Shown one piece after another: positions 2,017-14,842 of a DNA stretch of 16,121 nt. The notes under the pieces are model-generated. The model was not told the origin of the DNA. It ran no database searches and saw nothing but the letters and a program-made list of their open reading frames with translations. The position numbers and the translations under genes are program-made. Source of the stretch: Nitrospinae bacterium RIFCSPLOWO2_12_FULL_45_22. GTDB taxonomy: Bacteria; 2-12-FULL-45-22. How positions within the stretch are numbered: position 1 is the stretch's first letter; each line of letters begins with the position of its first letter. The stretch is taken from contig MHDQ01000044.1 of the NCBI GenBank assembly GCA_001803565.1, forward strand, positions 1-16,121. Reading direction: 5' to 3'.

Positions 2017-3690
2017 CTATATGCCTTTGTTCCGCAATATCTGCACCGCTGTTGTAATCTCCACGGCTTGTGATTCAATAATAGCAATCAACTCATCTGG
2101 TGTCCTGCTATCTTCTCGATTCTTTCGGTTAGGATTAACCGCCTTAAGATCGTAATTTTTCGCCTCAATCTCTTCTATCGGGACTCGCCAGGAACGCCAA
2201 CTAGATTGCGGAATTTTGATTGTGGATTGCGGACTGTCTTTATTCCGCATTCCAAATTCTGCATTCAACAATTGAAAGAACTCCTCAAATTGTTCTGCAG
2301 TTAAGGGCTGCTTTTTAGTTATATTGATATCGGATAAATCGTAATACCAGATTTCTTTCGTAGGCCCCCCTTTGTTAAAAAATAAGAGGTTAGTCTTGCT
2401 TGCTGCCCCGGCATTCATGAAAACCTTTGGCGGAAGACTCACGATGAGCCATAGGTTGCATTCATTAAGGAGTTTACGCTTGGTCTGGACAAAGGCAGTC
2501 TCATTTGTGCGGAACAAGACCCCTTCATCCATCACAATCCCGCATCTCCCACCCGGCTTGAGACTATCCATCACATGTTGCAGAAAAAGAACCTGCGTAG
2601 CGCTAGTCTTATAGGCGAAGCAAGTCTGGGCCTCTTTCCCCTCTTTACCGCCGAATGGAGGATTGGTAAGCACCACATCAAAAAGGGCTGGTGCGCTGGA
2701 GAAGAGCCCACCATAAACCTCAAGCCCCGTCAGTGTGTTTCCATGCCAGATATGGGGTTCATCAATTTCCTGGAGCACGAGGTTTGCCAACGCAATCGGA
2801 TAAACCAGGTTTTCCTTTTCTCGGCCATAAAAGGTGCTGGTTTTAAGAATTGCTATTTCTTCCCCTGTGTTTGCCTTCTGCCTCATGAGTTGATATGCTT
2901 GCGCTAAAAACCCCCCGGTTCCGCAACCCGGATCGTAGACTGTCTCTCCGACCTCTGGGTTAATTACCCTCACCATCACCCGGATAACCTCTCTTGGCGT
3001 AAAGAACTGTCCACCGTCATTGTTTTTCTCCCCCATCTGCTGGAGCAATCCTTCATACACCTGTGAGAGGGTAAACATGTGGGTCTCATCAACCGTTACC
3101 GAATGCTGATTTCGGATTGTGGATTGCGGAATCTTAGATTGAGGAGTTTCTAATATATCCGCATTCCGCATTCCCAATTCCACATTCAAATTGTGGATTT
3201 TATCAAGGATATCCAGGAGGTTACGCTCAGTATCTATCCCGGTCTTTTCAATGGACGAAAAAACCTCACTAATGACTTTCTGCCGAGGAGTGGCTCCTGG
3301 TTTGCTTTTAAGGTCTCGTAGATAAGGTATAAGTTCCGCGTTTACAAAGGACATAAATGCCCCGAGCGTGCTGTTTTGAAGCTCTTTTCTTTTCAACCCT
3401 TGAACTTTTAAACCCTGCGACTCTTTAACTTTGTTTTGTGGCGGTGCGGCCCAGTCGCACCAGCGATATGGATATTCCAAAGACGGTCTAAAATCCGCGC
3501 CTACTGCCTTTGCCTGCTCTGCCTCTTTCTCTTCCCGCTCATCAAGGATACGAAGGAAGAGCATCCAGGTAAGTTCCGGCACATACTGAAGAGCCCCGGC
3601 CCGGCCGGAGCGCCGCATAATATCGCAGATGCCTTTGATGTAGGCATTCAGCGATTGCGGGGTAGAAATTTTGCGGTTGTTTTTAGCCAT
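2017..3690 (-). CDS. hsdM: Type I restriction-modification system DNA methyltransferase subunit HsdM
   Basis: The 557-residue product is an adenine-N6 DNA methyltransferase that pairs with HsdS to modify host DNA. The N-terminal helical domain spans about residues 1-165 (LNAYIKGICDIMRRSG near the start). The methylase domain follows, with GGQFFTPREV (226-235), AdoMet motif I DPGCGTGGF (253-261) and catalytic motif IV NPPF (343-346). Three low-complexity stretches break the usual architecture: about 88-104 (KESQGLKVQGLKRKEL), 169-197 and 476-496. The last two are translated copies of the repeat family described below, and all three keep the frame open. The start at 3690 has a GAGGAG site and overlaps the HEPN stop by 8 bases, implying coupled translation. 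HsdR and HsdS lie upstream on the same strand, separated from this gene by Gabija. Confidence 0.93.
   Translation of the reverse strand: MAKNNRKISTPQSLNAYIKGICDIMRRSGRAGALQYVPELTWMLFLRILDEREEKEAEQAKAVGADFRPSLEYPYRWCDWAAPPQNKVKESQGLKVQGLKRKELQNSTLGAFMSFVNAELIPYLRDLKSKPGATPRQKVISEVFSSIEKTGIDTERNLLDILDKIHNLNVELGMRNADILETPQSKIPQSTIRNQHSVTVDETHMFTLSQVYEGLLQQMGEKNNDGGQFFTPREVIRVMVRVINPEVGETVYDPGCGTGGFLAQAYQLMRQKANTGEEIAILKTSTFYGREKENLVYPIALANLVLQEIDEPHIWHGNTLTGLEVYGGLFSSAPALFDVVLTNPPFGGKEGKEAQTCFAYKTSATQVLFLQHVMDSLKPGGRCGIVMDEGVLFRTNETAFVQTKRKLLNECNLWLIVSLPPKVFMNAGAASKTNLLFFNKGGPTKEIWYYDLSDINITKKQPLTAEQFEEFFQLLNAEFGMRNKDSPQSTIKIPQSSWRSWRVPIEEIEAKNYDLKAVNPNRKNREDSRTPDELIAIIESQAVEITTAVQILRNKGI
2203..2267. 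repeat. ATTCCGC/GATTGCGG inverted repeat inside hsdM (C-terminal copy)
   Basis: The left arm has GATTGCGG-type units (2203-2235) and the right arm ATTCCGCATTCC-type units (2241-2267), in opposite orientation. On the coding strand the copy is translated as NAEFGMRNKDSPQST and so on (HsdM residues 476-496), in frame, between the methylase core and the C-terminal segment. Confidence 0.8.
3101..3190. repeat. ATTCCGC/GATTGCGG inverted repeat inside hsdM (N-terminal copy)
   Basis: The left arm (3101-3142) carries GGATTGTGGATTGCGG units and the right arm (3157-3190) ATTCCGCATTCCC units. It is read in frame as VELGMRNADILETPQSK and following residues (HsdM 169-197), placed exactly between the N-terminal helical domain and the methylase domain. 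Confidence 0.8.
3379..3429. repeat. Second low-complexity repeat type inside hsdM
   Basis: Degenerate tandem units close to CAACCCTTGAAC and TTTTAAACCC encode the in-frame KESQGLKVQGLKRKEL stretch of HsdM. The units differ from the ATTCCGC family. Only one copy is visible in this window, so it is a tentative call. Confidence 0.45.
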
Positions 3691-4084
3691 TTAATTTCTC
3701 CTCGGGGAACATGGTCTTAATAAAACTCTTAGCCTCTTCCAAATCTTTCTCGATATCTTCACAGGTAAGCTCTAAATCTCCAAGAGGAGGATATCTATCA
3801 GCAAAATAATATCCTGTTATACGTTCACATAATAGGTAGAAATTTTGAAGTTCAGAATTATATCGAATGGCTTCGTCCAGGAGAGCATCAAGTTCGTGGA
3901 TCTTTTTAAGCTTCCAGCCGCACCGGAGAAGAAAGGCCTTAAGATACTTTTCCACACTCTGCTGGAGGAAAAAACCTGCCGCCTCTGGGTCCTGATGCTT
4001 TAAATTTCTTTTTGCTCGCTCCCAATCCTTACGAGCTATCTTTAACCAATCCTCCATATCCGAGTATTCATCAGATTTATTCAT
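3683..4084 (-). CDS. HEPN domain protein (toxin-like partner of MNT)
   Basis: The 133-residue product has the all-helical HEPN pattern: a WLKIARKDWERAKRNL helix (13-28), AGFFLQQSVEKYLKAFLL (36-53), KIHELDALL around His63, and a Y-x-x-x-RYP motif near 92-99. Small HEPN proteins encoded next to MNT nucleotidyltransferases usually form type VII-like toxin-antitoxin pairs in which HEPN is an RNase toxin. The usual R-x4-6-H catalytic motif is not clearly present here (R54 and H63 are nine positions apart), so RNase activity is uncertain. The start overlaps the MNT stop (ATGA) and the stop overlaps the hsdM start by 8 bases, so the three genes probably form one coupled unit. The HEPN fold call is fairly sure; the toxin role is inference. 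Confidence 0.82.
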   Translation of the reverse strand: MNKSDEYSDMEDWLKIARKDWERAKRNLKHQDPEAAGFFLQQSVEKYLKAFLLRCGWKLKKIHELDALLDEAIRYNSELQNFYLLCERITGYYFADRYPPLGDLELTCEDIEKDLEEAKSFIKTMFPEEKLNG

Positions 4085-4398
4085 AGTGTAATCCCTTCTT
4101 CTAATATATGACGAACAAATTGATCCCCTTTTTTTCGCCTTTTTTCTACTTCGTCGGGAGTTAATACAATGGGGGACAGAGGAAGCCCGTTTCGCAAATC
4201 ACGCATAAGACCTCTCACCCTTGCCATCCTTTCAAAGAAGCGCTCATTAGTGGGTGCGATAATAAAAAGGTCTATATCGCTATCTTCCGTTTCCTCTCCT
4301 GTAGCATAAGACCCGTAGAGGATGACCTTCTCGGCATGATATTCTTTCTTCAATCTCTCACTTATCTTTCGCAGCCGTTCGTATATTTCCTGGTTCAT
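4081..4398 (-). CDS. MNT-type minimal nucleotidyltransferase (antitoxin-like)
   Basis: The 105-residue product has the minimal DNA polymerase beta-like nucleotidyltransferase signature G29-S30, ten residues, then D41-x-D43 (in LYGSYATGEETEDSDIDLFI), which binds metal and nucleotide. In characterised HEPN/MNT pairs the MNT protein transfers AMP to the HEPN toxin and silences it. The third catalytic acid that usually sits on a later strand is not evident: the expected position reads LPLSPIVL. The start at 4398 has GGAAGG seven bases upstream; that site lies in the last codons of an hsdM-like relic. The stop overlaps the HEPN start by four bases. Confidence 0.85.
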   Translation of the reverse strand: MNQEIYERLRKISERLKKEYHAEKVILYGSYATGEETEDSDIDLFIIAPTNERFFERMARVRGLMRDLRNGLPLSPIVLTPDEVEKRRKKGDQFVRHILEEGITL

Positions 4399-4402
4399 AT
4401 CG

Positions 4403-4489
4403 TCACCTTCCTAATTTGGCCTTAGTATCGCCGATGCCCTTGATATATGCGCCAAATTGAGAAAATAGGGTCTGAGCAAGAATCTCATC
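4403..4489 (-). pseudogene. Relic of the hsdM 5' end upstream of MNT-HEPN
   Basis: Between stop codons this frame reads SQFGAYIKGIGDTKAKLGR and then TGA. It aligns with HsdM residues 12-30 (QSLNAYIKGICDIMRRSGR). At the DNA level 4421-4450 matches 3616-3645 at 24 of 30 positions by my count. There is no start codon. Its last codons (GGA AGG TGA) form the ribosome binding site of the MNT gene. It lies on the same strand and about 800 bases upstream of the true hsdM start, with MNT-HEPN between. Chance similarity is possible because the match is short, but the parallel case at hsdS makes a relic more likely. Confidence 0.6.
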
Positions 4490-4632
4490 TTATTGGTATC
4501 AAAGCTTATAAATTCTTTTTCCTTCTGGCAACTATCAATTATTATAAAGACCGCACGTCTTTCCCTCACATTTTCGTTTTATCAATATGAAAGCTCCGGT
4601 CATTTTAACTCCCAAGAAGAACTATATCATTG
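4490..4632. other. AT-rich spacer between gajB and the hsdM relic
   Basis: No gene is visible. It probably contains one junction of the Gabija insertion. On the minus strand a possible promoter reads TTGCCA (4526-4531) and TATAAG (4505-4510) with a 15-base spacer, which could drive MNT-HEPN-hsdM, but the spacing is short and this is weak. Confidence 0.35.
4546..4562 (-). terminator. Hairpin downstream of gajB
   Basis: AAAGAC-GTGCG-GTCTTT on the minus strand forms a six-pair stem about 70 bases after the gajB stop. No clean T-run follows, so it may be only a weak terminator or a processing site. Confidence 0.35.
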
Positions 4633-6474
4633 TCAAAAATAAAATTGATTCAGAATATTACTTTTGTCATTTTCTGGGAACATAATTGTGACAGACTGTC
4701 TTGCGCGGGTCACACCAACATAAAATAGCTTCCTAAAATTTAGAGTATCCTTGAAACTCCTAGAGTCAACATAAGGTAAAATTATATGATCAAATTCTTT
4801 CCCCTTTGCCTGATGAATCGTTAAGACATAAATTCCTCTTCTCAGTCTCTGTATGCGTGCAAACTGAAACTGGAGGAACTTACCCTCTATCAATTCAATT
4901 ATTTCTGATGGAGACAGATTGGGATGAACAGTGGCAATGCCTGCAAGGGATTCATAGAGATTAAAGATATCTCTATTGATTCTAAAAGCTCTTCTCAAGA
5001 TATCGAGTTTTTTACTAATCTCTCCGAGCAACGAGGAAATCGCATCTAATTTTGTCGCTAACAGATCATTTATATTCTCAATCAACAATGTGGTTTCTTC
5101 TTTTCTATAGCTCCCCTTGTCAATTGGGCCACCTATTTGGAGATAACTCTTCTCTATTTTATCCCACGGAACCGTATAATTACCATCGCACGATTCTGTT
5201 AAAATGGATCGATAAACATAAAGAATTATTTTAAGCTTGTTAGACGTTACATCTCCAAGGGAAATTATTAGCCCTCTAAAGAAATTGTGTTGTTTATCTC
5301 CTTTGCTGATTTCTTTACACCCAATACCAAATTTTCTAAAGTGCCTGTTAATCTTATGTATATAATCATTCCGATAGAACAGAACTCCAATACTTGATAA
5401 AGGCTCCTGTCTTTGAAGTGATCGCACATATTTATCCAACAAATTAAAACAACCGACTGGAGCAGCTCTTCCTTGAGCATCGAAGGGTTGTAGTTTAAAG
5501 TCAGAGCAATTACGACAATCTATCGAATTATTTTGCTCCTCTCGATAGTTAAATCGGAGATTTTCGAATATCCGTTTTAACTCAGGCTTATCTTTGAATC
5601 TATGCAAAGTGTTAAGGAATTTGGGTTGTATGTTGTAAAAATCCTTTGCTTGCCGGAGACGATCTAATGCAGCACCTCGCCACTCATATATCTGCTGAAG
5701 CTCATCTGCAAAAAGCAGGAGATAACCGTTGCCCTTCAATCTCTTAACAATTTCAAACTGTAGATCCGATGAATCCTGAAACTCATCTACAATAATCACA
5801 GGATACTTCTCTTGATAAATTTCTATTAGGACATTAGATTCGGAGATTATCCTATAAAAGTAATATCCAAAATCGTCAAAATATATTCGACCATTTCTGT
5901 TTTCGTTCAATATGAATTCCCTGATGGGATGAGTATATGCTTTCCACTTGTCAGGGAATTTTATTGGATAGTGAGGTGTCGGAAAAGCAGGGTTATAATA
6001 CTCAAGCATATTTGATAACTGCTCTAATTCCTGATTTCTCTGGTTCTCTCCTCTATGAAGAGCAGGTATTGATGAGTCTTTACGGATAAAAGACTCGAGG
6101 GCGTTATATCTTTCCTCAGGTGATATAATTTCCAAATTAAAAGGTAGTCCCAAATATGTCCTGAAAGCCCATACCTTTTGTCGGAAAAAGCTATGAAAAT
6201 TTGTTATCTCAATTCTTTTCTGGGTTTCCTTTGACAATATACGATCAGCCTCTATCTGCAATTCGGCACGGGCATTTTTAGAAAAGGTTAAGAAGAGAGC
6301 CCTTTGGTGGGGTTTTAATCGTTCCCCTTTATCAAGACCTTTCTCTATAATTGACTGAGCATATAGAACACCAGTTACTGTCTTTCCTGAACCAGGGGGA
6401 GCTTCTACAAGAATCACCTTATCTCTACAGTTGATAATACATTCTTGGTCAGGATCAGGATAGATAATAGACAT
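4633..6474 (-). CDS. gajB: Gabija helicase GajB (UvrD/PcrA-like superfamily 1)
   Basis: The 613-residue product has superfamily 1A helicase motifs in order: Walker A APPGSGKT (25-32), motif Ia-like LFLTFSKNARAEL (60-72), Walker B VDEFQD (229-234), motif III FADELQQIYEWRGA (255-268), motif V TIHQAKGKEFD (552-562) and motif VI FYVGVTRAR (584-592). A UvrD-like helicase directly after an OLD-type ATPase/TOPRIM protein is the defining pair of the Gabija anti-phage system, in which GajB assembles with GajA. The start at 6474 overlaps the gajA stop by 20 bases. It is longer than the roughly 500 residues of the well-known Bacillus GajB; the extra length appears to lie in the central region, which holds a CxxC (320-323) and the 400-540 helical segment. 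The gene is visibly more AT-rich than hsdR and carries no ATTCCGC repeats. Confidence 0.88.
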   Translation of the reverse strand: MSIIYPDPDQECIINCRDKVILVEAPPGSGKTVTGVLYAQSIIEKGLDKGERLKPHQRALFLTFSKNARAELQIEADRILSKETQKRIEITNFHSFFRQKVWAFRTYLGLPFNLEIISPEERYNALESFIRKDSSIPALHRGENQRNQELEQLSNMLEYYNPAFPTPHYPIKFPDKWKAYTHPIREFILNENRNGRIYFDDFGYYFYRIISESNVLIEIYQEKYPVIIVDEFQDSSDLQFEIVKRLKGNGYLLLFADELQQIYEWRGAALDRLRQAKDFYNIQPKFLNTLHRFKDKPELKRIFENLRFNYREEQNNSIDCRNCSDFKLQPFDAQGRAAPVGCFNLLDKYVRSLQRQEPLSSIGVLFYRNDYIHKINRHFRKFGIGCKEISKGDKQHNFFRGLIISLGDVTSNKLKIILYVYRSILTESCDGNYTVPWDKIEKSYLQIGGPIDKGSYRKEETTLLIENINDLLATKLDAISSLLGEISKKLDILRRAFRINRDIFNLYESLAGIATVHPNLSPSEIIELIEGKFLQFQFARIQRLRRGIYVLTIHQAKGKEFDHIILPYVDSRSFKDTLNFRKLFYVGVTRARQSVTIMFPENDKSNILNQFYF

Positions 6475-8344
6475 TGTCTTTAATCTTACCTGTAGCGAAT
6501 CTTTGAATTATCCCAGCAAGTTTAACAAAGGTTTCAGGGATCCCCTCTTTATTATTTCTTATTGCCTCTGCAATTATTCTACTTTGTCTTACTGACTTGC
6601 AATCCATAGGTGCTTTCTTACCCGCAATTAGAAGATGTAAGAGTTTTCGTAATTGCATTTCATCAAACTTAGTTTTCATCTCCTTAACCCATTCCGGAAA
6701 GGATTCGGTTGATTTAATTATATCTAAGTCTTCTGAACTAATAATGTTATCTTTGTCCACAAAATATTGATGGATATTCTTTCTTAGCTGGCTCCACGGT
6801 ATATACTCCTCAACACAATTTTTTATTCCTTCGATCAGTCCTGCAAGGCAGGCCTCTTTTGTAAGTAATTTGTCATAGGTATTCCTTTCTGAATCTTTAG
6901 GTAAAACGATAGTAAAACTACTACTAGCTATGATTCTATTCAGTTCATCTCCTGATTTATCATTGTCCACAATAGAGATTACACTAAATTCAAGTCTTCT
7001 AAAGAAATTTGCGTACTTATGAATATCCCCGTGTCCACCACAGTCTATAGACTCAACTCCCAGAGCTTCTAATCCTTCAAATAAGACATCTTCATTATCT
7101 GATTTTAGGGTTTTTCCCTCGAGGGCTCTAAAGAAAATGGGCAAACCTCCTCTTTCGGAAGGACCCTCTACAAGTAAAATATGTTTGGCGAAGAATGCTT
7201 GAAGCAATTGATTTCTTTCATATCTTTCAAAAAACTTTAGCTCTTCGGGAGAACATCTCTTTTCAATGGAGATTATCGAGTGTTCATCTGCTCCAGGTAG
7301 AACGATGTTGACAGAACCAAGGTCAAATGCAGATATGATGTCTGGTGAGTGAGAGGAGACAAATAATTGGAACCTCTTAGACTCGGGATTTTGAAGTCGT
7401 CTTGCAATGAGGCGTTGGTAATATGGTTCGAGGTTATGCTCTGGTTCCTCAAACGCTAATATTAAGTTTTGGCTTTTATCTTCGGATATAATTCTAAAAA
7501 TTGTTGAAATCAGGACAGCATCTTGCATCCCAGAACCTTGCATTTCGATAGGAATTTCTGTATCCGTATCAACTCCTCGAAGCACTAAGTTTAAACTCTG
7601 CAATACCTTTCGTTCACTGAGATTTAAGATATTAAGTCGCATGGCTTCTACATTGTCCTCGATAAATTTAAGCCTTGCAATCTCAGACCTCAATTGCTCA
7701 AAGCTTCTTTTAAACTCAAGGTTTTCATCAAGTACAGGTTGTGATTCCTTCATCTTTTCAACTATTTGGGTAATACTGGAACTGAGATCGTGTTTCCCCA
7801 AGAGTTTTGAAAACATAGAGTTTTGATAAAATGCTAATTCATGCAATGGATCTCTATTAGAAGGGATATATAAAAACCCTATTTTCTCCTTCTCATCCCT
7901 ACTCACTGTCCTCTTATTAGATTCTGGTTTAGGATAAAATATTGTAGGAGTAAAGGTACTATCACATTCTAATCTTATTCTTAGTACCAATTTATTGTTA
8001 CCCTTAAATGCTTCTTCAAAATCTTCATAGGGCAGAAATCGCCCTTCAGGATCCATGACTTCAAGATGTTCATCAAAATGAGAAGCAATATCCTTTTCTT
8101 CTTCATCTATAGCGAATATCAGTTCGATGACAATAGGTGTTTCAGTTTTTCTCTTGTGGAAATCAAACTCCGTAAATGACTCTCGGTACCAAGGAATATA
8201 AGGATTGAGACAGAAATCTAGTGCTTTGAAGATTGTTGTTTTACCAGAGTTATTACCCCCTATAATTAGATTAATATCATTAGGCCTATAATCTAATTTT
8301 TTGATCGAACGAAAATTTTCAATACTTATTCTGGCAATCTTCAT
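6455..8344 (-). CDS. gajA: Gabija endonuclease GajA (OLD-family ATPase with TOPRIM)
   Basis: The 629-residue product starts with an ABC-type ATPase head: ISIENFRSIKKL (7-18), Walker A GNNSGKTT (30-37), a long helical insert, signature QGSG (269-272), Walker B LILAFEEPEHNLEP (294-307) and a H-loop SSHSPDII (330-337). A TOPRIM nuclease domain follows, with LLVEGPSE (390-397, Glu393) and VDNDKSG (459-465, Asp460 and Asp462). This is the class 2 OLD nuclease layout of GajA, which cuts DNA and is controlled by nucleotide binding. The partner helicase gene overlaps its 3' end. The start at 8344 follows an AAAGGA-like site about nine bases upstream. A stand-alone OLD nuclease is the alternative, but the adjacent UvrD-like gene makes Gabija the better call. 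Confidence 0.9.
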   Translation of the reverse strand: MKIARISIENFRSIKKLDYRPNDINLIIGGNNSGKTTIFKALDFCLNPYIPWYRESFTEFDFHKRKTETPIVIELIFAIDEEEKDIASHFDEHLEVMDPEGRFLPYEDFEEAFKGNNKLVLRIRLECDSTFTPTIFYPKPESNKRTVSRDEKEKIGFLYIPSNRDPLHELAFYQNSMFSKLLGKHDLSSSITQIVEKMKESQPVLDENLEFKRSFEQLRSEIARLKFIEDNVEAMRLNILNLSERKVLQSLNLVLRGVDTDTEIPIEMQGSGMQDAVLISTIFRIISEDKSQNLILAFEEPEHNLEPYYQRLIARRLQNPESKRFQLFVSSHSPDIISAFDLGSVNIVLPGADEHSIISIEKRCSPEELKFFERYERNQLLQAFFAKHILLVEGPSERGGLPIFFRALEGKTLKSDNEDVLFEGLEALGVESIDCGGHGDIHKYANFFRRLEFSVISIVDNDKSGDELNRIIASSSFTIVLPKDSERNTYDKLLTKEACLAGLIEGIKNCVEEYIPWSQLRKNIHQYFVDKDNIISSEDLDIIKSTESFPEWVKEMKTKFDEMQLRKLLHLLIAGKKAPMDCKSVRQSRIIAEAIRNNKEGIPETFVKLAGIIQRFATGKIKDNVYYLS

Positions 8345-8371
8345 CTTTATCTATTCCTTTTTGTTGCTTTT

Positions 8372-8377
8372 ATTATA
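8372..8377 (-). promoter_or_regulatory. Possible -10 element for gajAB
   Basis: A perfect TATAAT on the minus strand lies 28 bases upstream of the gajA start. No good -35 hexamer sits at the expected distance. It suggests Gabija has its own promoter, as expected for an inserted cassette. Confidence 0.4.
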
Positions 8378-8426
8378 GAATTCTTGGGTATCCAACTATT
8401 GATGAGTTTCCTTTTGAATTTCCATT

Positions 8427-8720
8427 GTCCTTGAGACTTTAAATGATGTAGAAATTAGGTAGAAATTAAGGACAGACACTATTTATTCATGCTTGGTTTC
8501 TTAGGCCTGTCTTTTAACAAAGCATTTAACACTCTACCTACTTTTTTCCTAACTCGGAAAAAATATTGTTGTTCCCAATGTATAATAAAGAAAGGGACAT
8601 GTCCCATATTATTATTTTTTTATAGGCATTTACACATTACTAGCCTTCCATCAAAATATAGTGCTTCTAGAAACATTTAAACATAAATTTTTGGGGGTAG
8701 AAGTCCTTTAGGCTAGTCAA
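8427..8720 (-). other. AT-rich spacer with probable decayed mobile-element end
   Basis: This part of the 478-base gap between hsdS and gajA has no convincing gene. It holds a perfect 12-base palindrome GGGACATGTCCC (8594-8605). On the minus strand there is a short open frame ending in KKVGRVLNALLKDRPKKPS and TAG, followed directly by GTGTCTGTCCTTAATTTC. That layout recalls to me the 3' ends of Y1 (REP-associated) transposase genes, but the match is from memory and weak. Confidence 0.3.
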
Positions 8721-8751
8721 GTACATAGGCCCATTTTTTTATATGTTTGAA

Positions 8752-8826
8752 TTAGCAAATTAAATATAGGAAGTGTACCCCTACACCCGTAATTAAGCCT
8801 CCCTTCTGTTCTGAATTATTAATCAT
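8752..8826 (-). pseudogene. Truncated 24-codon frame coupled to the hsdS stop
   Basis: An ATG overlaps the hsdS stop (ATGA) and opens a frame reading MINNSEQKGGLITGVGV and seven more residues to TAA. ATGA coupling is the usual signature of the next gene in an hsd operon, so this may be the start of a gene whose remainder was lost when Gabija entered. The peptide itself is not recognised. A small hairpin GTGTA-GGGG-TACAC (8773-8786) lies within it. Confidence 0.35.
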
Positions 8827-10088
8827 AACTCACCTCTAAATGCCTTTCTTAAAATTGACTGCGGTAAGGCATTCAATGCGGATTGCTGATTTCGGATTGC
8901 GGATTGTAGATTTTCAACTTGCACCATTTTTTCTTTGAGTTCATCAATAATATTTTTCTGGACTTCTATTGATGGTACAGGGATAACGTAATCTGATAAA
9001 AAACTATCAGGCACTCTCTGTTGGCCAACAGCACCAGTAAAATACGCTGTTGCCTCATTGAGAAAGTAGGGTTGTCGAATAAAACACCAAACCCATTCAG
9101 ATAGAGCTTCATTGCTGGGTCTCAAGACATGAAATTCTGTTGTCCCAAAACCTATTCCGTCAATCAAATTTTTTCCAATAACATGTTTTCCATTTTGCAT
9201 ACATGGCGTAATTTTGGCAAAGAGAACATCGTTTTCTTCGAAGTAAGTATACCCCTTAGCAACCTTTGAATATGGCACAACTTCTGGTTTAGCAACTGTA
9301 CCCGTTTTCTCATCCACTGCGGCCATTGGAATAAATGATGTTGGAGAATCAGAAGAGCGAGTGAAATTCTTAGGACGAGAAGAATTAATTTTGCATACTT
9401 CTCCAATCTTCTTTCTTTCCCACTTCTTTGCCGCTTCGCTTTCGAAGACCTCTTGTAGGTAGGCGGCGGGGAGGGCTTTGGCTGCCTCCAGTTGCTTTTC
9501 GCAAGCGGTTCGAGCGCGCCCCACCTCTTGCATCAGTTCCTGAAGCTTTGTGGTGATGCGCTTTTGTTCCTCTATTGGTGGTAAAGGGATAATGTAATTT
9601 AATAAAAAGCTATCGGGCACTCTTTGCTGGCCAACAGCTCCTGTAAAATACGTAGTTGCTTCTTGTAGGAAATGAGGTTGTCGTATAAAGTAATAAATCC
9701 ATTCAGGTAAAATTTCATTATTGGATCGTAAAACATGAAATTCTGTCGTGCCAAAACCTATTCCATCAATTAAATTTCTTGCTATAACATGCTTGCCATT
9801 TTGCATGCATGGCGTAATTTTGGCAAAAAGAACATTATTTTCCTCAAAATAAGTATAGCCTTTAGCAACCTTTGAATATGGGACAATTTCGGGTTCAGCA
9901 ATAGTGCCTGTTTTTTCATCAACTGCTGCCATTGGAACAAATGTAGTTGGTGCATCGTGAGAACGAATAAAATTCTTAGGCCGACGAGGATTTATCTCAC
10001 ATACCTGCCCCAACTTTACTACTCTCCAATCTTCAGGGATTAAGCTGATTTCTGTTTGTTTGTATTTTATATGGTTAATTTTAGTCAT
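8823..10088 (-). CDS. hsdS: Type I restriction-modification specificity subunit HsdS with duplicated recognition domain
   Basis: The 421-residue product has the usual order: short N-terminus with LIPEDWRVVKLG, target-recognition domain 1 (about 24-172), a helical spacer (172-222), target-recognition domain 2 (about 226-374) and a C-terminal helix ending LPQSILRKAFRGEL. It sets the DNA sequence recognised by the HsdM/HsdR complex. Residues 24-178 and 226-380 align without gaps at about 121 of 155 identical positions, including MAAVDEKTGT, VPYSKVAKGYTYFEEN and GAVGQQRVPDSFL. Type I S subunits normally carry two different domains, so near-identical halves predict a symmetric target. In the second spacer QSAIRNQQSA (395-404) is a translated copy of the ATTCCGC repeat family. 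The start at 10088 is four bases after the preceding gene's stop. Confidence 0.93.
   Translation of the reverse strand: MTKINHIKYKQTEISLIPEDWRVVKLGQVCEINPRRPKNFIRSHDAPTTFVPMAAVDEKTGTIAEPEIVPYSKVAKGYTYFEENNVLFAKITPCMQNGKHVIARNLIDGIGFGTTEFHVLRSNNEILPEWIYYFIRQPHFLQEATTYFTGAVGQQRVPDSFLLNYIIPLPPIEEQKRITTKLQELMQEVGRARTACEKQLEAAKALPAAYLQEVFESEAAKKWERKKIGEVCKINSSRPKNFTRSSDSPTSFIPMAAVDEKTGTVAKPEVVPYSKVAKGYTYFEENDVLFAKITPCMQNGKHVIGKNLIDGIGFGTTEFHVLRPSNEALSEWVWCFIRQPYFLNEATAYFTGAVGQQRVPDSFLSDYVIPVPSIEVQKNIIDELKEKMVQVENLQSAIRNQQSALNALPQSILRKAFRGEL
8876..8912. repeat. GATTGCGG half-repeat inside hsdS
   Basis: Only the left-arm type is present (GCGGATTGC, TTTCGGATTGCGGATTG). It encodes the in-frame QSAIRNQQSA segment in the C-terminal helical spacer of HsdS. 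Confidence 0.7.
8949..9413 (-). repeat. Direct repeat encoding HsdS recognition domain 2
   Basis: This stretch and 9555-10019 are direct repeats at a 606-base (202-codon) period, for example the shared GGCCAACAGC at 9023 and 9629. The copies have diverged at many third positions, so the duplication is not very recent. Confidence 0.85.
9555..10019 (-). repeat. Direct repeat encoding HsdS recognition domain 1
   Basis: Partner of the repeat at 8949-9413. The protein copies are about 78% identical by hand count. Confidence 0.85.
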
Positions 10089-10092
10089 TTGT

Positions 10093-10524
10093 TTAAGTTT
10101 TTTTAATATATTCTACCCATCCAAAAGGCAATAAATCACATTTCCAGGGTAGTATTTCATATATACTTAAATGGTCTTTCGTTATTAGCTCTATTATTTT
10201 CCAAAAATATTCATCTATTTGCCAAGGATAATGTCCTTTACTAATTCTTTCTTTCCAATGTCCTCGTGCTTCCTTTGGTAACATGGTCCACCAACAATCT
10301 ACACTTATATGATACATCCGATAAACAATCCTCCACTTATCTAATTCTGGTTGCGGATCTTCATAGTCGCCAGATATTAAAGGATCATGATCTTTCAATC
10401 GATGTCTAATACCTGGCATTTCTTGAGAATATTTATCCATTTGTGTATCTACTTTAACTTCTGGATAACCACACGCCCCAAAAGCCATTTTCCAAAGTTT
10501 CCTATGCAGTCTATTATTTGGCAT
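10093..10524 (-). CDS. Unrecognised Trp-rich protein between hsdS relic and hsdS
   Basis: The 143-residue product is not recognised. It has nine Trp (about 6%), many His, Lys and acidic residues, no signal peptide and no membrane span, so it is probably a soluble cytoplasmic protein. Notable segments are LWKMAFGACGYPEVK (10-24), VDCWWTMLPKEARGHW (75-90) and ILPWKCDLLPFGWVEY (124-139). A strong GGGAGGAT site precedes the ATG at 10524; it is formed by the Val-Gly-Gly-Tyr codons of the hsdS relic, which the gene overlaps by 11 bases. Its stop is four bases from hsdS, so it should be cotranslated with HsdS. Its position suggests an accessory or control protein for the specificity subunit, but that is inference only. 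Coding status is supported by the length, the site and the tight spacing. Confidence 0.6.
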   Translation of the reverse strand: MPNNRLHRKLWKMAFGACGYPEVKVDTQMDKYSQEMPGIRHRLKDHDPLISGDYEDPQPELDKWRIVYRMYHISVDCWWTMLPKEARGHWKERISKGHYPWQIDEYFWKIIELITKDHLSIYEILPWKCDLLPFGWVEYIKKT

Positions 10525-10582
10525 ATCCTCCCACTTTCCAATCCTCAGGGATTAAGCAAAAGTTTCTGTCGGCTTTGGTCAT
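10514..10582 (-). pseudogene. Relic of the hsdS 5' end
   Basis: The 22-codon frame MTKADRNFCLIPEDWKVGGY plus Ala-Lys and TAA matches the start of the intact HsdS (MTK, then LIPEDWRVV). CTTAATCCCTGAGGATTGG is the same in both except for one base, and 22 of 24 bases match over a slightly longer stretch. The relic breaks off at the point where the 143-residue gene begins. Its ATG lies inside the 3' end of the regulator remnant, as a normal operon junction would. Confidence 0.75.
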
Positions 10583-10913
10583 TTGAGCCCTTTGCAAGCC
10601 CTTTATGAGTCGTTTGACGCCTTTCTGGCCCCTTTCTGACCCCTTTGGCTCCTCTTGGCACATATTCTGTTCCCTTACCAGTGATACCAATTTGCTCAAT
10701 AATGTTTCTTTTAACCAAATCTTCTAAATCTCTTGTAGCGGTTCTCTTTGAAACCATATTAAGTTCCTGATATTTTTTATTCGTAATCTTCTCTTTCTCC
10801 TTCACATACATCACCGCCTTTATCTGCCGCTCGCTCAGTCCCATCTTTGTCAGATTTTCCTCTGTATAAATATCTTTGTAGAAATAGACCGAAAAGCCGC
10901 CCATCTCTTCCAT
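10545..10913 (-). pseudogene. C-terminal remnant of an AlbA_2/COG2865-type DNA-binding regulator
   Basis: The 122-residue frame carries only the last part of a protein that is usually about four times longer: GGFSVYFYKDIYTEENL (5-21), then a winged helix-turn-helix LSERQIKAVMYVKEKEKITN (26-45) and SKRTATRDLEDLVKRNIIEQIG (55-76), ending in a basic tail. In the family an N-terminal AlbA_2 (Schlafen-like) domain and a GHKL-type ATPase region precede it; neither is in this window. The frame starts directly at the edge of an ATTCCGC repeat block without a good ribosome binding site and lies in the same frame as the four-helix-bundle stop codon upstream. It looks like the 3' end of a gene split by insertion of that gene. 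Such regulators are common companions of hsdS in type I operons. It may still be translated at a low level. Confidence 0.7.
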
Positions 10914-11026
10914 TGCGGAATTCGGAGTGCGGATTGATGATGTCGGAATGCGGAATTCGGATTGTGAAATTATTTGCCTTTTTTATCATTTCCTGTATTC
11001 CCCATTCCGAATTCTGCATTCCCCAT
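10912..11026. repeat. ATTCCGC/GATTGCGG repeat block between regulator remnant and four-helix-bundle gene
   Basis: A left arm of GCGGAATTCGGAGTGCGGATT-like units (10912-10970) and a right arm of ATTCCCCATTCCGAATTCTGC-like units (10995-11026) flank about 25 bases of T-rich spacer. The right arm encodes the last residues of the four-helix-bundle protein (DGECRIRNGEYRK). Confidence 0.8.
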
Positions 11027-11402
11027 CTTTTCGATTTCTCCGAGCCGTTTTTATGGATGTAACCACAATTGCAATAATTTCGTTAGCTTCATTCATTAGG
11101 CGTTGAATCTGATTTTGCTCTACCAATCTTGCATCAAGTAGTAATTCTAACCAGTAAAGGGTTTCATCGGCTTCCTCTTCAACAATACCCATTTTAGAAA
11201 TAAAATCAGCCCTTGATCTCGCTCTACAAGCTGCACGATAATTAGCTCCAATAGATGTTCCCGACCTCAGGATCTGTCTACCCAATACATCTGCAATACG
11301 ATTTTTAGGGAGATTTTCTACCAATCTAATTATTTCCAAAGCAAACTTCCTTGTTCTTTCTTTCAAATCTTCATTCCGCATTCCCAAATCCGCATTCCGC
11401 AT
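10986..11402 (-). CDS. Four-helix-bundle protein (S23/bAvd-like family)
   Basis: The 138-residue product has the conserved core of the four-helix-bundle family first known from 23S rRNA intervening sequences: LKERTRKFALEIIRLVENLP (13-32), LGRQILRSGTSIGANYRAA (40-58), ARSRADFISKMGIVEEEADE (61-80) and LYWLELLLDARLV (82-94), ending IVVTSIKTARR. The family is also related to the accessory protein of diversity-generating retroelements; no reverse transcriptase is present here. Biochemical function is unknown. Both ends are made of the repeat family: MRNADLGMRNEDL at the N-terminus and DGECRIRNGEYRK at the C-terminus. Translation may start at 11402, directly after the radC stop, or at the Met at 11381. 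The bracketing repeats suggest the gene moved in with them. Confidence 0.88.
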   Translation of the reverse strand: MRNADLGMRNEDLKERTRKFALEIIRLVENLPKNRIADVLGRQILRSGTSIGANYRAACRARSRADFISKMGIVEEEADETLYWLELLLDARLVEQNQIQRLMNEANEIIAIVVTSIKTARRNRKDGECRIRNGEYRK

Positions 11403-11403
11403 T
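11372..11403. repeat. ATTCCGC half-repeat at the start of the four-helix-bundle gene
   Basis: A single right-arm type block (CATTCCGCATTCCCAAATCC and one more unit) encodes MRNADLGMRN. With the block at 10912-11026 it brackets the gene. Confidence 0.75.
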
Positions 11404-12446
11404 TATATCAGTCCTGCCATTGCAAAGCTAAAATAATCCTCTTGGTTTTTACCAATGATTATGTGGTCTAAAACCTTTATACCGAACAGGTTACAGGCAT
11501 CTATAATGGCGTTTGTTATTTTGCTATCTTCCGCCGATGGCTCGGTATCTCCTGAGGGATGATTATGAACTAAAATAATTGACGAGGCAGACCGCAATGT
11601 GGCCTCTTTTATAATCTCTTTCGGATCAACTATACTTGCGTTAATGCTGCCTTTACTGATCTCTACATTGTGAAGGGGTTTGTTCTTTATATCCAGGAGG
11701 ATCACACTAAAAAACTCTTTCTTGGCATCCCTCAGGTATGGGCCGTAATATTCCGCTACATAGGCAATCACATCATCAGCCTTTTTTATCCTCTTCTTTT
11801 TTTCCGCTTCTTCTTTAAAAAATCTTTTACCCAGCTCCAGTGCCACTTTTATTTGAACCGCCTTGGCATACCCAATACCATCCATCTTACAAATTTCAGA
11901 GATAGGTGCGGAATCTAGCTCTCTTAATGTCCCAAACCGATTCAGTAACCTTTTGGCTAACTCTTCTGCATTAATCCCTTCTTTGCCGGTTCGCAGGATT
12001 ATGGCCAGGAGTTTGGATAATGGAAGAGAGTCTGGCCCATATTTTATCGCCATCTCCCTGGGCCTTTCTTCTTTTATCCACTCCCTGATCGGGCGATTTT
12101 CTCTATGGGCCGCTACCTGCTCCCTCACTGCTTTCCTTATCCTGTCGCAATCATCAGCGGTTTTGATGTTTAACTGGGCAATGATTTCCTGAGATCTGGC
12201 GTCAGTTAATAGCCCTTTCCTGGAGCATCTGAGAAAAATCTTGCCCCTTTTGCTACATAAAGGATAAATGGCATTCGCCACCAGGAAATCCATTATCTCC
12301 ATTGTGGAATGCGGATTGTGAATTGCGGAATCATTCGAGTGCGGATTGATGATTTCGGATTGCTGATTAGAATATTGATGGCCTCTTTGCTCATTTTTCA
12401 TTCTTCTATTCCCCATTCTAAAATCCGCATTCCTCATTGTGTTCAT
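11403..12446 (-). CDS. radC: RadC family protein (JAB/MPN domain, UPF0758)
   Basis: The 347-residue product ends in a RadC-type JAB domain with the metal-binding HNHPSGD (294-300) and Asp307, preceded by a helix-hairpin-helix region (LDSAPISEICKMDGIGYAKA, 177-196) and the LLAIILRTG segment (146-154). RadC proteins are common in mobile and defence regions; a role in DNA repair is disputed and the real function is unknown. Residues 53-135 form an extra N-terminal region (FLVANAIYPLCSKRGKIFLR and following) longer than in Escherichia coli RadC. The first 48 residues are a translated repeat block. The start at 12446 overlaps the hsdR stop (ATGA), so it is probably the native start despite the repeat; Met49 (12302) is the alternative. 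Confidence 0.88.
   Translation of the reverse strand: MNTMRNADFRMGNRRMKNEQRGHQYSNQQSEIINPHSNDSAIHNPHSTMEIMDFLVANAIYPLCSKRGKIFLRCSRKGLLTDARSQEIIAQLNIKTADDCDRIRKAVREQVAAHRENRPIREWIKEERPREMAIKYGPDSLPLSKLLAIILRTGKEGINAEELAKRLLNRFGTLRELDSAPISEICKMDGIGYAKAVQIKVALELGKRFFKEEAEKKKRIKKADDVIAYVAEYYGPYLRDAKKEFFSVILLDIKNKPLHNVEISKGSINASIVDPKEIIKEATLRSASSIILVHNHPSGDTEPSAEDSKITNAIIDACNLFGIKVLDHIIIGKNQEDYFSFAMAGLI
12301..12438. repeat. ATTCCGC/GATTGCGG inverted repeat at the 5' end of radC
   Basis: The left arm (12301-12369) has six or so GCGGATT units, and the right arm (12409-12438) ATTCCCCATTCTAAAATCC-type units. It encodes RadC residues 4-48, in frame, including NADFRMGN and IHNPHST. Confidence 0.8.
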
Positions 12447-14842
12447 GCGGCGAATAGTCTCCTCTTGGCCTCATTAATAATCTCGTGAGGTTCTCCAAGT
12501 ATTTTTAAGGCCCCAAGACCGCCTGCCTTAGCCACATCCGGGGCATTGAATATATAAGGATTTTCCAGCTCTTCGGTGCCGCCCCTTTCAAACTGCCTGG
12601 CAAGGGCGATCAAGGTTTCTGCGGCCCTCGGAGGCAAACTCTTAAACCACTCACTATGTTTGTATCGTAATGCCGAAACACGCTCAGCACGGTCTTTGGG
12701 AACGATTCCATATCCAATCACCGCAAGGACATCGTAAAGGTCGCAATCTTTGCGGTTTAAAAGCTCCCGGAGCAATCGCAAGCCTTGCCCATCACCGGGC
12801 AACACTTCAATAAGTGCTTTTCGCCTCTGTGGGTCAATCCAGCAGTTTCTGAAGTCTTCCAGGGTCTTGACCTCTTCCAGCAAGCGAGCCGCTATGATCT
12901 GTTGATATTCCTCGAGGGTGATCATCCCCAGTTTACCCTTTACCTGGGTCGCTATATAAGTCCCAGCCGGATTTATATGAACATCAAACCCTTCTACCCG
13001 GATTATTTTTTCTTTTTCTACCTCCTCAGGTTCTTTAGACTCCCGTGTGGGCGAAGGGCGGCACTCAAAACCTTTTCCTAAGAGACGGGTGGCATTGGTG
13101 TAATCATAGACCCGAAACATCAATTTATTAGTCGGCAAGTGAATTCTTGAACCCCTTCCCATCATCTGCTGGAAAGAAATAGGAGAGCGGACATATTTGA
13201 AAAAGACGACATTGCGCAAAATGGGGACATCAACCCCTGTGGTTATTAAATCAACGGTAGTGGCGATAAAATGGCTGCGCTCGGAGCCGCGCAAATCGGC
13301 AATATACTGGGTCCCTCTTACCGCGGCAGTGCATTTGAAGGCATAAGGCTCGGCGCGAATGTGGAATTTGGATTGCGGACTGCGGAATTCAGAATTTGTT
13401 TTCTTATTCCACATTCCCAGTTCCGCATTCTGCATTCGTTTCCACCATTGGGCATAGAGATTGTTCATTTCGGCGGCAACTGCATCGGCATGGGTATCCC
13501 GGGTGCAAAAGATGACGGTCTTCTGGTGGGGACCGCCGGTTTGAAGAAACATTTCGAAGAGGTCCTGGCACATAGCTTTTACCCTGTCAGGCAACTGAAT
13601 TATATCTTCAAAGGACGGCGCCTCGTAAGTCTCACGAGTCTCATCGGGAGTGAGTGCTTGCCCCGTGGTGGCGTCCCGTGCCCCCAGTACCTCAATATCC
13701 TCCCGGGTTACCCCTTTTATATCGAGATTCACCTCTTGTCTGATGATTTCGCACGCCGGAAGATAACCGTCTTCAATCCCCTGCGCCATGTCGTATTCAT
13801 AGACTGGTTCACCAAAGTATTTGAGATTATCGGCAGTTATTTCTTCATCCTCCCCACGTTCATCCTGGGTCCCTCCTTCAAAAGAACGTGGGGTTGCGGT
13901 GAGCCCGATTTGAACCGCATCTGGGTTTTGGCGCAGCACGAGACTCCATTTCCCCCACGCGCTTCTATGACATTCATCAATAATGATATGGCTGAAATAA
14001 TTTTGGGGATAATTCTCGAGGAAAAACCTGGCATCTTCCGTCTCTCCTGCCACATTAAGTGTCTGGTAGGTTGCAATCAAGATGCGGGCATTCTTCTGAG
14101 GCTTTGCTGTTGTTACTTCGGCTGCATCAGCCCCGAAGACATTCTGGAAAGCACCCAGGGCCTGGGTACGCAATTCATCCCGGTCGCAGATAAATAAGGC
14201 ACGGCGAAGCTGTCCAGCGTCCGCAATCTTCTTCAAGAGGTGCACCGCAATAAAAGTTTTTCCCGATCCGGTTGCCAGAAAGAGGAGTAATCTTTTTTGG
14301 CCCCTAACTATTTTCTCAAGCAAGGCCCGAATAGCAGCGTCCTGATAGTAGCGTCTGCTGGCCTCTCCACCTGGATATGGAACTAATAGCGGTTTGGCAG
14401 TTTCACTTTCCAGAGAAACCCCGATGGATTTTTCGTAGCGCCGACGCAATTCAGAGGGAGAGGGGAATTCTCCTAAGGGACGAGGCTTAGAAGTTAGACC
14501 GGTAAGCTGGTTGTATTCCACGAATAGATGTCCATTAGAAGAATAAACAAAAGGAACATGGTTCAAACGGGCATATTTCTTTGCCTGTTCAAGACCTTTA
14601 TCCGGAGGCTCATCGTTTCTCTTCGCCTCAATTAAGGCAATGGCTACCGGCTGGGTATTGATGTTTACCCGCACTCTCAAGAGATAATCTGTCCTACCCC
14701 ACTCTTTTCGTTTTGGCCGGCCATCTATGATATCAATCCCGTGCTCGGTCTCTTCACGGCGGATAAGGTCTTCTGTCCAGCCCCGCTGGTGGAGGACAGG
14801 GTCAATGAGTTTTGCTTTAGTATCGGCCTCGCTTAATGACAT
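12443..14842 (-). CDS. hsdR: Type I restriction-modification system motor/endonuclease subunit HsdR
   Basis: The 799-residue product is the translocase and nuclease subunit. The N-terminal nuclease domain has Asp52 and the I-E-A-K motif (71-74). The superfamily 2 helicase core has Walker A ATGSGKT (190-196), DECH (289-292) and the TATPRS segment (315-320). Helicase motifs continue with VIFCTRDTH (443-451), TTGVDVP (534-540) and QQMMGRGSR (558-566). The C-terminal part resembles the EcoEI-type R protein and binds the methylase core. The length is normal apart from an insertion at 471-495 that is a translated repeat. Its start at 14842 has AAGGGG seven bases upstream and a strong promoter behind it, so this is the first gene of the operon. 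The stop overlaps the radC start. Confidence 0.95.
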   Translation of the reverse strand: MSLSEADTKAKLIDPVLHQRGWTEDLIRREETEHGIDIIDGRPKRKEWGRTDYLLRVRVNINTQPVAIALIEAKRNDEPPDKGLEQAKKYARLNHVPFVYSSNGHLFVEYNQLTGLTSKPRPLGEFPSPSELRRRYEKSIGVSLESETAKPLLVPYPGGEASRRYYQDAAIRALLEKIVRGQKRLLLFLATGSGKTFIAVHLLKKIADAGQLRRALFICDRDELRTQALGAFQNVFGADAAEVTTAKPQKNARILIATYQTLNVAGETEDARFFLENYPQNYFSHIIIDECHRSAWGKWSLVLRQNPDAVQIGLTATPRSFEGGTQDERGEDEEITADNLKYFGEPVYEYDMAQGIEDGYLPACEIIRQEVNLDIKGVTREDIEVLGARDATTGQALTPDETRETYEAPSFEDIIQLPDRVKAMCQDLFEMFLQTGGPHQKTVIFCTRDTHADAVAAEMNNLYAQWWKRMQNAELGMWNKKTNSEFRSPQSKFHIRAEPYAFKCTAAVRGTQYIADLRGSERSHFIATTVDLITTGVDVPILRNVVFFKYVRSPISFQQMMGRGSRIHLPTNKLMFRVYDYTNATRLLGKGFECRPSPTRESKEPEEVEKEKIIRVEGFDVHINPAGTYIATQVKGKLGMITLEEYQQIIAARLLEEVKTLEDFRNCWIDPQRRKALIEVLPGDGQGLRLLRELLNRKDCDLYDVLAVIGYGIVPKDRAERVSALRYKHSEWFKSLPPRAAETLIALARQFERGGTEELENPYIFNAPDVAKAGGLGALKILGEPHEIINEAKRRLFAA
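13359..13437. repeat. ATTCCGC/GATTGCGG inverted repeat inside hsdR
   Basis: The left arm GTGGAATTTGGATTGCGGAC and following (13361-13394) and the right arm ATTCCACATTCCCAGTTCCG and following (13405-13437) are imperfect inverted copies. It encodes QNAELGMWNKKTNSEFRSPQ plus about five residues (HsdR 471-495), in frame, in the loop before the EPYAFKCTA segment. Confidence 0.8.

Follow-up and report, generated by a model that had tools for sequence, protein, structure and literature searches.

According to our analysis, the short remnants of hsd 5' ends that stand ahead of cargo genes in the type I operon of the window (the whole stretch of 16,121 nucleotides analyzed here) are probably scars of additive recombination between hsd operons, a reading to which we give a probability of about two in three. 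The preliminary description of this DNA had suggested one mechanism for both cases in the window. This is likely, since the layout is found again in unrelated operons whose cargo is also unrelated, but for the mobile element that had been considered as one form of it, no recombinase of its own was found.

Nested genes and hsd relics in the window

The minus strand of the window carries one long type I operon, which runs from hsdR through an intact hsdM and in which all non-hsd genes lying between the hsd genes are on the same strand. Its features are given below in operon order; loci with which they were compared are designated by L numbers.

12443..14842, minus strand: hsdR, type I restriction subunit (PADLOC REase_I, E=3e-88)
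11403..12446, minus strand: radC-like JAB domain gene within the operon (Pfam RadC, E=6e-40)
10986..11402, minus strand: 23S rRNA intervening-sequence-type four-helix protein (Pfam PF05635, E=1e-21)
10545..10913, minus strand: C-terminal remnant of an AlbA_2-type ATP-binding/wHTH protein (tblastn, 68-71% to L006 and L119; sequence comparison)
10533..10584, minus strand: hsdS 5' relic (MTKADRNFCLIPEDWKV), about 17 codons (0 of 200 shuffles as high; 25-nt direct repeat, 92%)
10093..10524, minus strand: 143-residue orphan cargo gene (no family match)
8823..10088, minus strand: intact hsdS (Pfam Methylase_S, E=1e-30)
6455..8344, minus strand: gajA-like OLD-family ATPase/TOPRIM gene, first cargo of the hsdS-hsdM slot (PADLOC GajA, E=9e-59)
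4633..6474, minus strand: gajB-like UvrD helicase gene (PADLOC GajB, E=1e-57)
4423..4474, minus strand: hsdM 5' relic, codons ~9 to 25 (score of 20.5 against a shuffle maximum of 17, 0 of 200; longer form in L006)
4403..4422, minus strand: leader CAAATTAGGAAGGTGA with the MNT Shine-Dalgarno (common to L006; missing in the free-standing MNT-HEPN locus L178)
4081..4398, minus strand: MNT nucleotidyltransferase, second cargo (Pfam NTP_transf_2, E=5e-14)
3683..4084, minus strand: HEPN partner, 3' end overlapping the hsdM start (Pfam HEPN, E=3e-22)
2017..3690, minus strand: intact hsdM (Pfam N6_Mtase, E=3e-59)

As had been described, a complete hsd gene follows each cargo, namely, hsdM (3690-2017) after MNT-HEPN and hsdS (10088-8823) after the 143-residue gene. 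The layout of two insertions holds for both of these cargo blocks, but the operon is more nested than had been stated, as the gajA/gajB pair (8344-4633) had gone unmentioned; because this pair is also present, the hsdS-hsdM slot consists of two cargo blocks parted by the hsdM relic. According to PADLOC profiles, the pair has the layout of Gabija, with an OLD-like ATPase/TOPRIM gene followed by an overlapping UvrD helicase gene. The likeness of gajA/gajB and of MNT-HEPN to known defence or toxin-antitoxin genes is one of sequence only. Between hsdS and gajA lies a gap of 478 bp (8345-8822) with no recognizable relic or gene, the junctions elsewhere being tight; a relic sought in this gap was not found, as 166 of 200 shuffles scored as well. 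A 300-nt direct repeat at 80% is common to both halves of hsdS (8956-9861), and the recognition domains thus look like two copies of one.

The hsdS relic, MTKADRNFCLIPEDWKVGG, scored 24.5 against a shuffle maximum of 21.5, and an independent repeat scan returned it as one copy of a direct repeat whose other copy, at a distance of 512 nt, is the beginning of the intact hsdS; this repeat was seen at the hsdS site of the window only. Being above all shuffles and carrying the repeat, the relic reported upstream of the 143-residue gene is real. Its start is overlapped by the tail of the AlbA_2-type remnant, whose counterpart in L006 has 470 aa. The 143-residue protein itself has no match in Pfam, PADLOC, NCBIfam, PHROGs, plasmids, or IMG/VR, and its single-sequence structure model is unreliable (pLDDT 46).

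The frame of the hsdM relic on the minus strand ends in LFSQFGAYIKGIGDTKAKLGR and a stop codon. The relic has no start codon. The score given above is its best against the hsdM 5' ends of the clade, the shuffles having a mean of 12.3, and with none of the 200 reaching it in this alignment, the relic that had been noted upstream of MNT-HEPN is likewise real. When the entire 5.1 kb separating hsdS from hsdM were searched blindly, it scored 18 against a null maximum of 19, which is not significant, and we therefore accept the relic because of its position and its parallel in L006.

Stacked hsdM relics in L006

Locus L006 has the same MNT-HEPN pair as the window (74% and 71%) and holds two stacked hsdM relics, both of which scored above all shuffles. 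The first (r1), upstream of MNT, is a longer stub than that of the window and is frameshifted, with a score of 38.5 against 19 for the shuffles. The second (r2), downstream of HEPN, is an open frame and is followed by a truncated gene and then by the intact hsdM. The truncated gene resembles the cargo of L004, L011, and L012 and is therefore regarded as encoding a DUF4143-type ATPase. That the frameshifted r1 would be the older and the open r2 the newer is as stacking predicts. The window and L006 share the junction of stub and MNT leader although their upstream genes differ (gajB in the former, another UvrD helicase gene in the latter), so the stub and MNT-HEPN form a unit that was inherited or transferred.

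The stubs of L006 fit the hsdM of other loci (L119, the window, and L002) better than the local intact hsdM, which ranks 19 of 22. The intact 5' end is thus a different allele from the stubs, which favors replacement over target duplication. The intact hsdM of L006 is sister to that of L004 with a support of 99.9 in the 5' 600 nt and of 36 in the rest, where the grouping is not rejected, and the L004 contig starts with the end of a DUF4143-type gene directly upstream of hsdM. These relationships are suggestive of a crossover inside the L006 hsdM.

Recurrence of stubs at hsdM and hsdS

With the window hsdM as query, about two dozen close relatives were collected, plus more from whole genomes; two genomes in the collection searched belong to the window's own phylum. 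Operons without cargo, for which a check had been proposed, do exist, since in L009 and L014 hsdS runs straight into hsdM. Exactly at the hsdM start position of these operons, L017 has a clean 25-codon hsdM stub, preceded by an hsdS tail and followed by an HTH-MNT and HEPN-like pair with its own promoter-like sequence and then by hsdM. This relic scored above all shuffles, and the stubs of the window, L006, and L017 break within ~9 nt of one another, at codons 22 to 26. The hsdR of this locus breaks off after ~130 codons and continues as the final 40 codons of hsdS (L017:2786-3285), a rearrangement that leaves hsdM with the toxin-antitoxin-like pair.

When every hsdM start was compared with the DNA upstream of it, fresh stubs came to light in L038 and L040, which belong to unrelated hsdM groups from Bacteroidales. 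The L038 stub is identical to the local gene at 71 of 75 nt from the ATG and ends at codon 25, while the L040 stub is identical at 43 of 44 nt from the ATG and ends at codon 15. Behind these stubs lies either a DUF1016 fragment with Fic and DUF1016 genes or a pair of Cas2-like and PIN genes; the stub of L038 is frameshifted, and the cargo there starts behind a gene fragment. The stub differs from the local gene in L006 and L013 but not clearly so in L017 or at the window hsdM, whereas in L038 and L040 the two are nearly identical, so that either a replacement or a copy of the resident 5' end would fit these sequences. Among 37 more Bacteroidales loci there was one clear stub, in L155, where 29 codons of hsdM are fused to an hsdS 3' tail matching the hsdS tail of L155 itself, followed by a short cargo gene and hsdM. 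The sequences of L017 and L155 contain runs of N, and both loci need confirming. Altogether, six hsdM events can be distinguished (that shared by the window and L006 r1, L006 r2, L017, L038, L040, and L155), in all of which the stub measures 15 to 30 codons, the range of the hsdS relics as well; longer stubs would have shown, as the query covered 50 codons. The immigration control region of E. coli has no cargo at this site, and the few hsdM loci from IMG/VR showed no stub in the first set (L169 to L174 left out).

At hsdS, L013 carries a stub (MSEISNPKIELPAGWRWVRLG), a gene for a 222-residue cargo protein, and then an hsdS allele that differs from the stub. The uninterrupted hsdS of L024, a genome of a different species, aligns with L013 through flank and gene start over 160 nt, nearly without gaps and with the first 39 nt identical. 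As had been predicted for related operons, the uninterrupted gene thus continues from the flank of the relic, L024 being the unfilled counterpart of the filled L013. The hsdS relics of both loci exceed all shuffles. L024 also has an AlbA_2 tail and a second hsdS 5' stub directly ahead of the hsdR of a complete operon (L024:2569-3164), as if a whole operon had been joined to the first codons of an older hsdS.

From genome to genome of the window's clade, the defence-type gene in the hsdS-hsdM slot nearly always changes (L002, L003, L005, L007, L008, L010, L012, L015, L022, L110, L115, and L119), with NACHT, TIR, OLD/UvrD, AbiEii, Panacea, reverse transcriptase, DUF4143, DUF3644, KAP, MNT-HEPN, and IrrE types besides Gabija. 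Overlap of the hsdS stop with the start of the cargo is frequent, and most embedded cargo in the clade has no stub. L110 shows the clean order hsdS-MNT-HEPN-hsdM, and MNT-HEPN stands free in L178 and L179, so MNT-HEPN with the hsdM that follows it can act as a donor. No integrase was found in the cargo of the window, L006, L013, L017, L038, and L040.

Translation signals at the relic ends

The cargo had been said to borrow the end of the relic as its ribosome binding site. In the window, GGAAGGTGA (4411-4403) and GTGGGAGG do sit in the relic frames just ahead of the cargo starts. However, the detectable hsdM homology stops ~12 nt short of GGAAGGTGA, and in L013 the Shine-Dalgarno of the cargo falls beyond the hsdS stub; the claim is therefore weak and not general. 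Having lost its start codon, the hsdM relic of the window is no translated leader.

The MNT leader at 4403..4422 may possibly be a decayed hsdS 3' tail, an idea that arose from the AILR codons in both the window and L006. Such an origin is conceivable because the MNT start of L110 overlaps the hsdS stop and the leader of L178 differs; in a test against other leaders, 0.14 to 0.19 of the controls were equally good, which is not significant.

Proposed mechanism and alternatives

Under additive recombination, the incoming DNA would carry cargo and, behind it, a different allele of the hsd gene. Its downstream end would join by homology inside that gene, and its upstream end would join the resident gene within the first 15 to 30 codons through short or no homology, sometimes bringing a piece of the donor's previous gene, such as the hsdS tail of L155. 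The resident start would stay as a stub with the cargo next to it, and the incoming allele would restore a complete gene, leaving the operon orientation unchanged. Repeated rounds would stack cargo with the newest closest to the intact gene, and once a stub-cargo-gene unit exists, its stub and gene could serve as arms for ordinary homologous transfer. That recombination takes place between alternative hsd alleles, as had been suggested, is supported by the low local rank of the L006 stubs, the fusion in L155, and the L013 allele unlike its stub. The upstream junctions are mapped by the hsdM and hsdS stubs; we infer the direction of transfer, the downstream crossover, and the manner of joining, which would resemble homology-facilitated illegitimate recombination. 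As for the downstream side, the 3' part of hsdM gives no rejection of the sister relation of L004 and L006, which counts against the inferred crossover. Illegitimate joining alone fails to explain stubs of at most 30 codons, so that one must also assume a preferred site or that longer fragments are selected against. The loci compared include no strain-level before-and-after pair of one species. A stronger version, in which acquisition at the first 30 codons of hsdM or hsdS is directed and repeatable, with each cargo unit bringing a replacement 5' end to build an ordered cassette stack whose newest member lies next to the intact gene, is in our view rather doubtful.

The near coincidence of the three hsdM breaks in the window's clade and the imperfect 25-nt direct repeat that flanks the 143-residue gene would suit a site-specific element that enters hsd 5' ends and supplies a replacement 5' end, with its recombinase acting in trans or lost; the outcome would be that of the dusA genomic islands (PMC4482086). 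We regard such an element as unlikely, since the repeats are merely hsd coding sequence, the Bacteroidales breaks fall at codons 15, 25, and 29, the junction partner in L155 is an hsdS tail, and no integrase or transposase was recognized in any cargo examined. The fusion in L155 could instead come from tandem complete hsd operons through a deletion with one endpoint at the beginning of hsdM (or hsdS) in the first operon and the other at the end of a gene in the second. This would also explain the remnant in L024, and L017 indeed lacks most of hsdR and hsdS. It is nevertheless improbable, as a full tandem array would be required every time and no array of two complete sets was observed. Separate endpoints would also be needed for cargo behind a promoter-like sequence (L017) or a gene fragment (L038).

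It is highly improbable that the stubs are retained as translated leader peptides which couple cargo translation to the upstream gene: the stub frame is open to a stop beside the cargo start in L017 and L006 r2, but the hsdM stub of the window has no start codon, those of L006 r1 and L038 are frameshifted, and most embedded cargo of the clade overlaps the hsdS stop without any stub. Chance similarity or an assembly artifact could be invoked for the window hsdM relic, which by itself is marginal in the blind whole-gap scan, and for the N runs in L017 and L155. With the same relic and junction in two independent assemblies (the window and L006) and all scores above the shuffles, we find this explanation hardly credible.

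Relation to known systems and significance

Defence genes nested in type I restriction-modification operons are known, among them TgvAB on VPI-2 of V. cholerae, RloF of C. jejuni, PrrC, and HEPN genes (PMC11411939, PMC3710099). They resemble the window slot in that unrelated anti-phage genes lie co-oriented between hsd genes; hsd 5' stubs ahead of cargo and stacking do not appear in the accessible text of these two reports, nor was an earlier description of either found in our literature search, outside which many subscription papers lie. Type VI secretion system (T6SS) effector-immunity modules undergo sequential displacement, which has been attributed to homology-facilitated illegitimate recombination (PMC5361080). 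There, too, each new module arrives together with a new core-gene allele, the old pieces stay beside it, and the arrays grow. In these arrays, however, the anchor is on the upstream side and what stays behind, downstream, are 3' pieces with immunity genes, whereas at the hsd loci a 5' stub stays behind on the upstream side and the downstream side would hold the anchor. In dusA islands, the insert likewise provides the target gene with a new 5' end, displacing the original one (PMC4482086), but these islands have an integrase and a semiconserved 21-bp flanking attachment sequence, neither of which was found at the hsd loci here.

Nested defence genes are now seen in many restriction operons, which raises the question of how they enter without breaking the operon. 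The short 5' stubs are a readable scar of the insertion site and of the order of stacked insertions, which can be searched for in any hsd operon. They show that a new hsd allele can come in along with cargo; a single event can therefore alter the defence repertoire and, via hsdS, the DNA specificity. As read from these loci, the scars suggest that new defence genes may come with a replacement copy of the gene in which they land.
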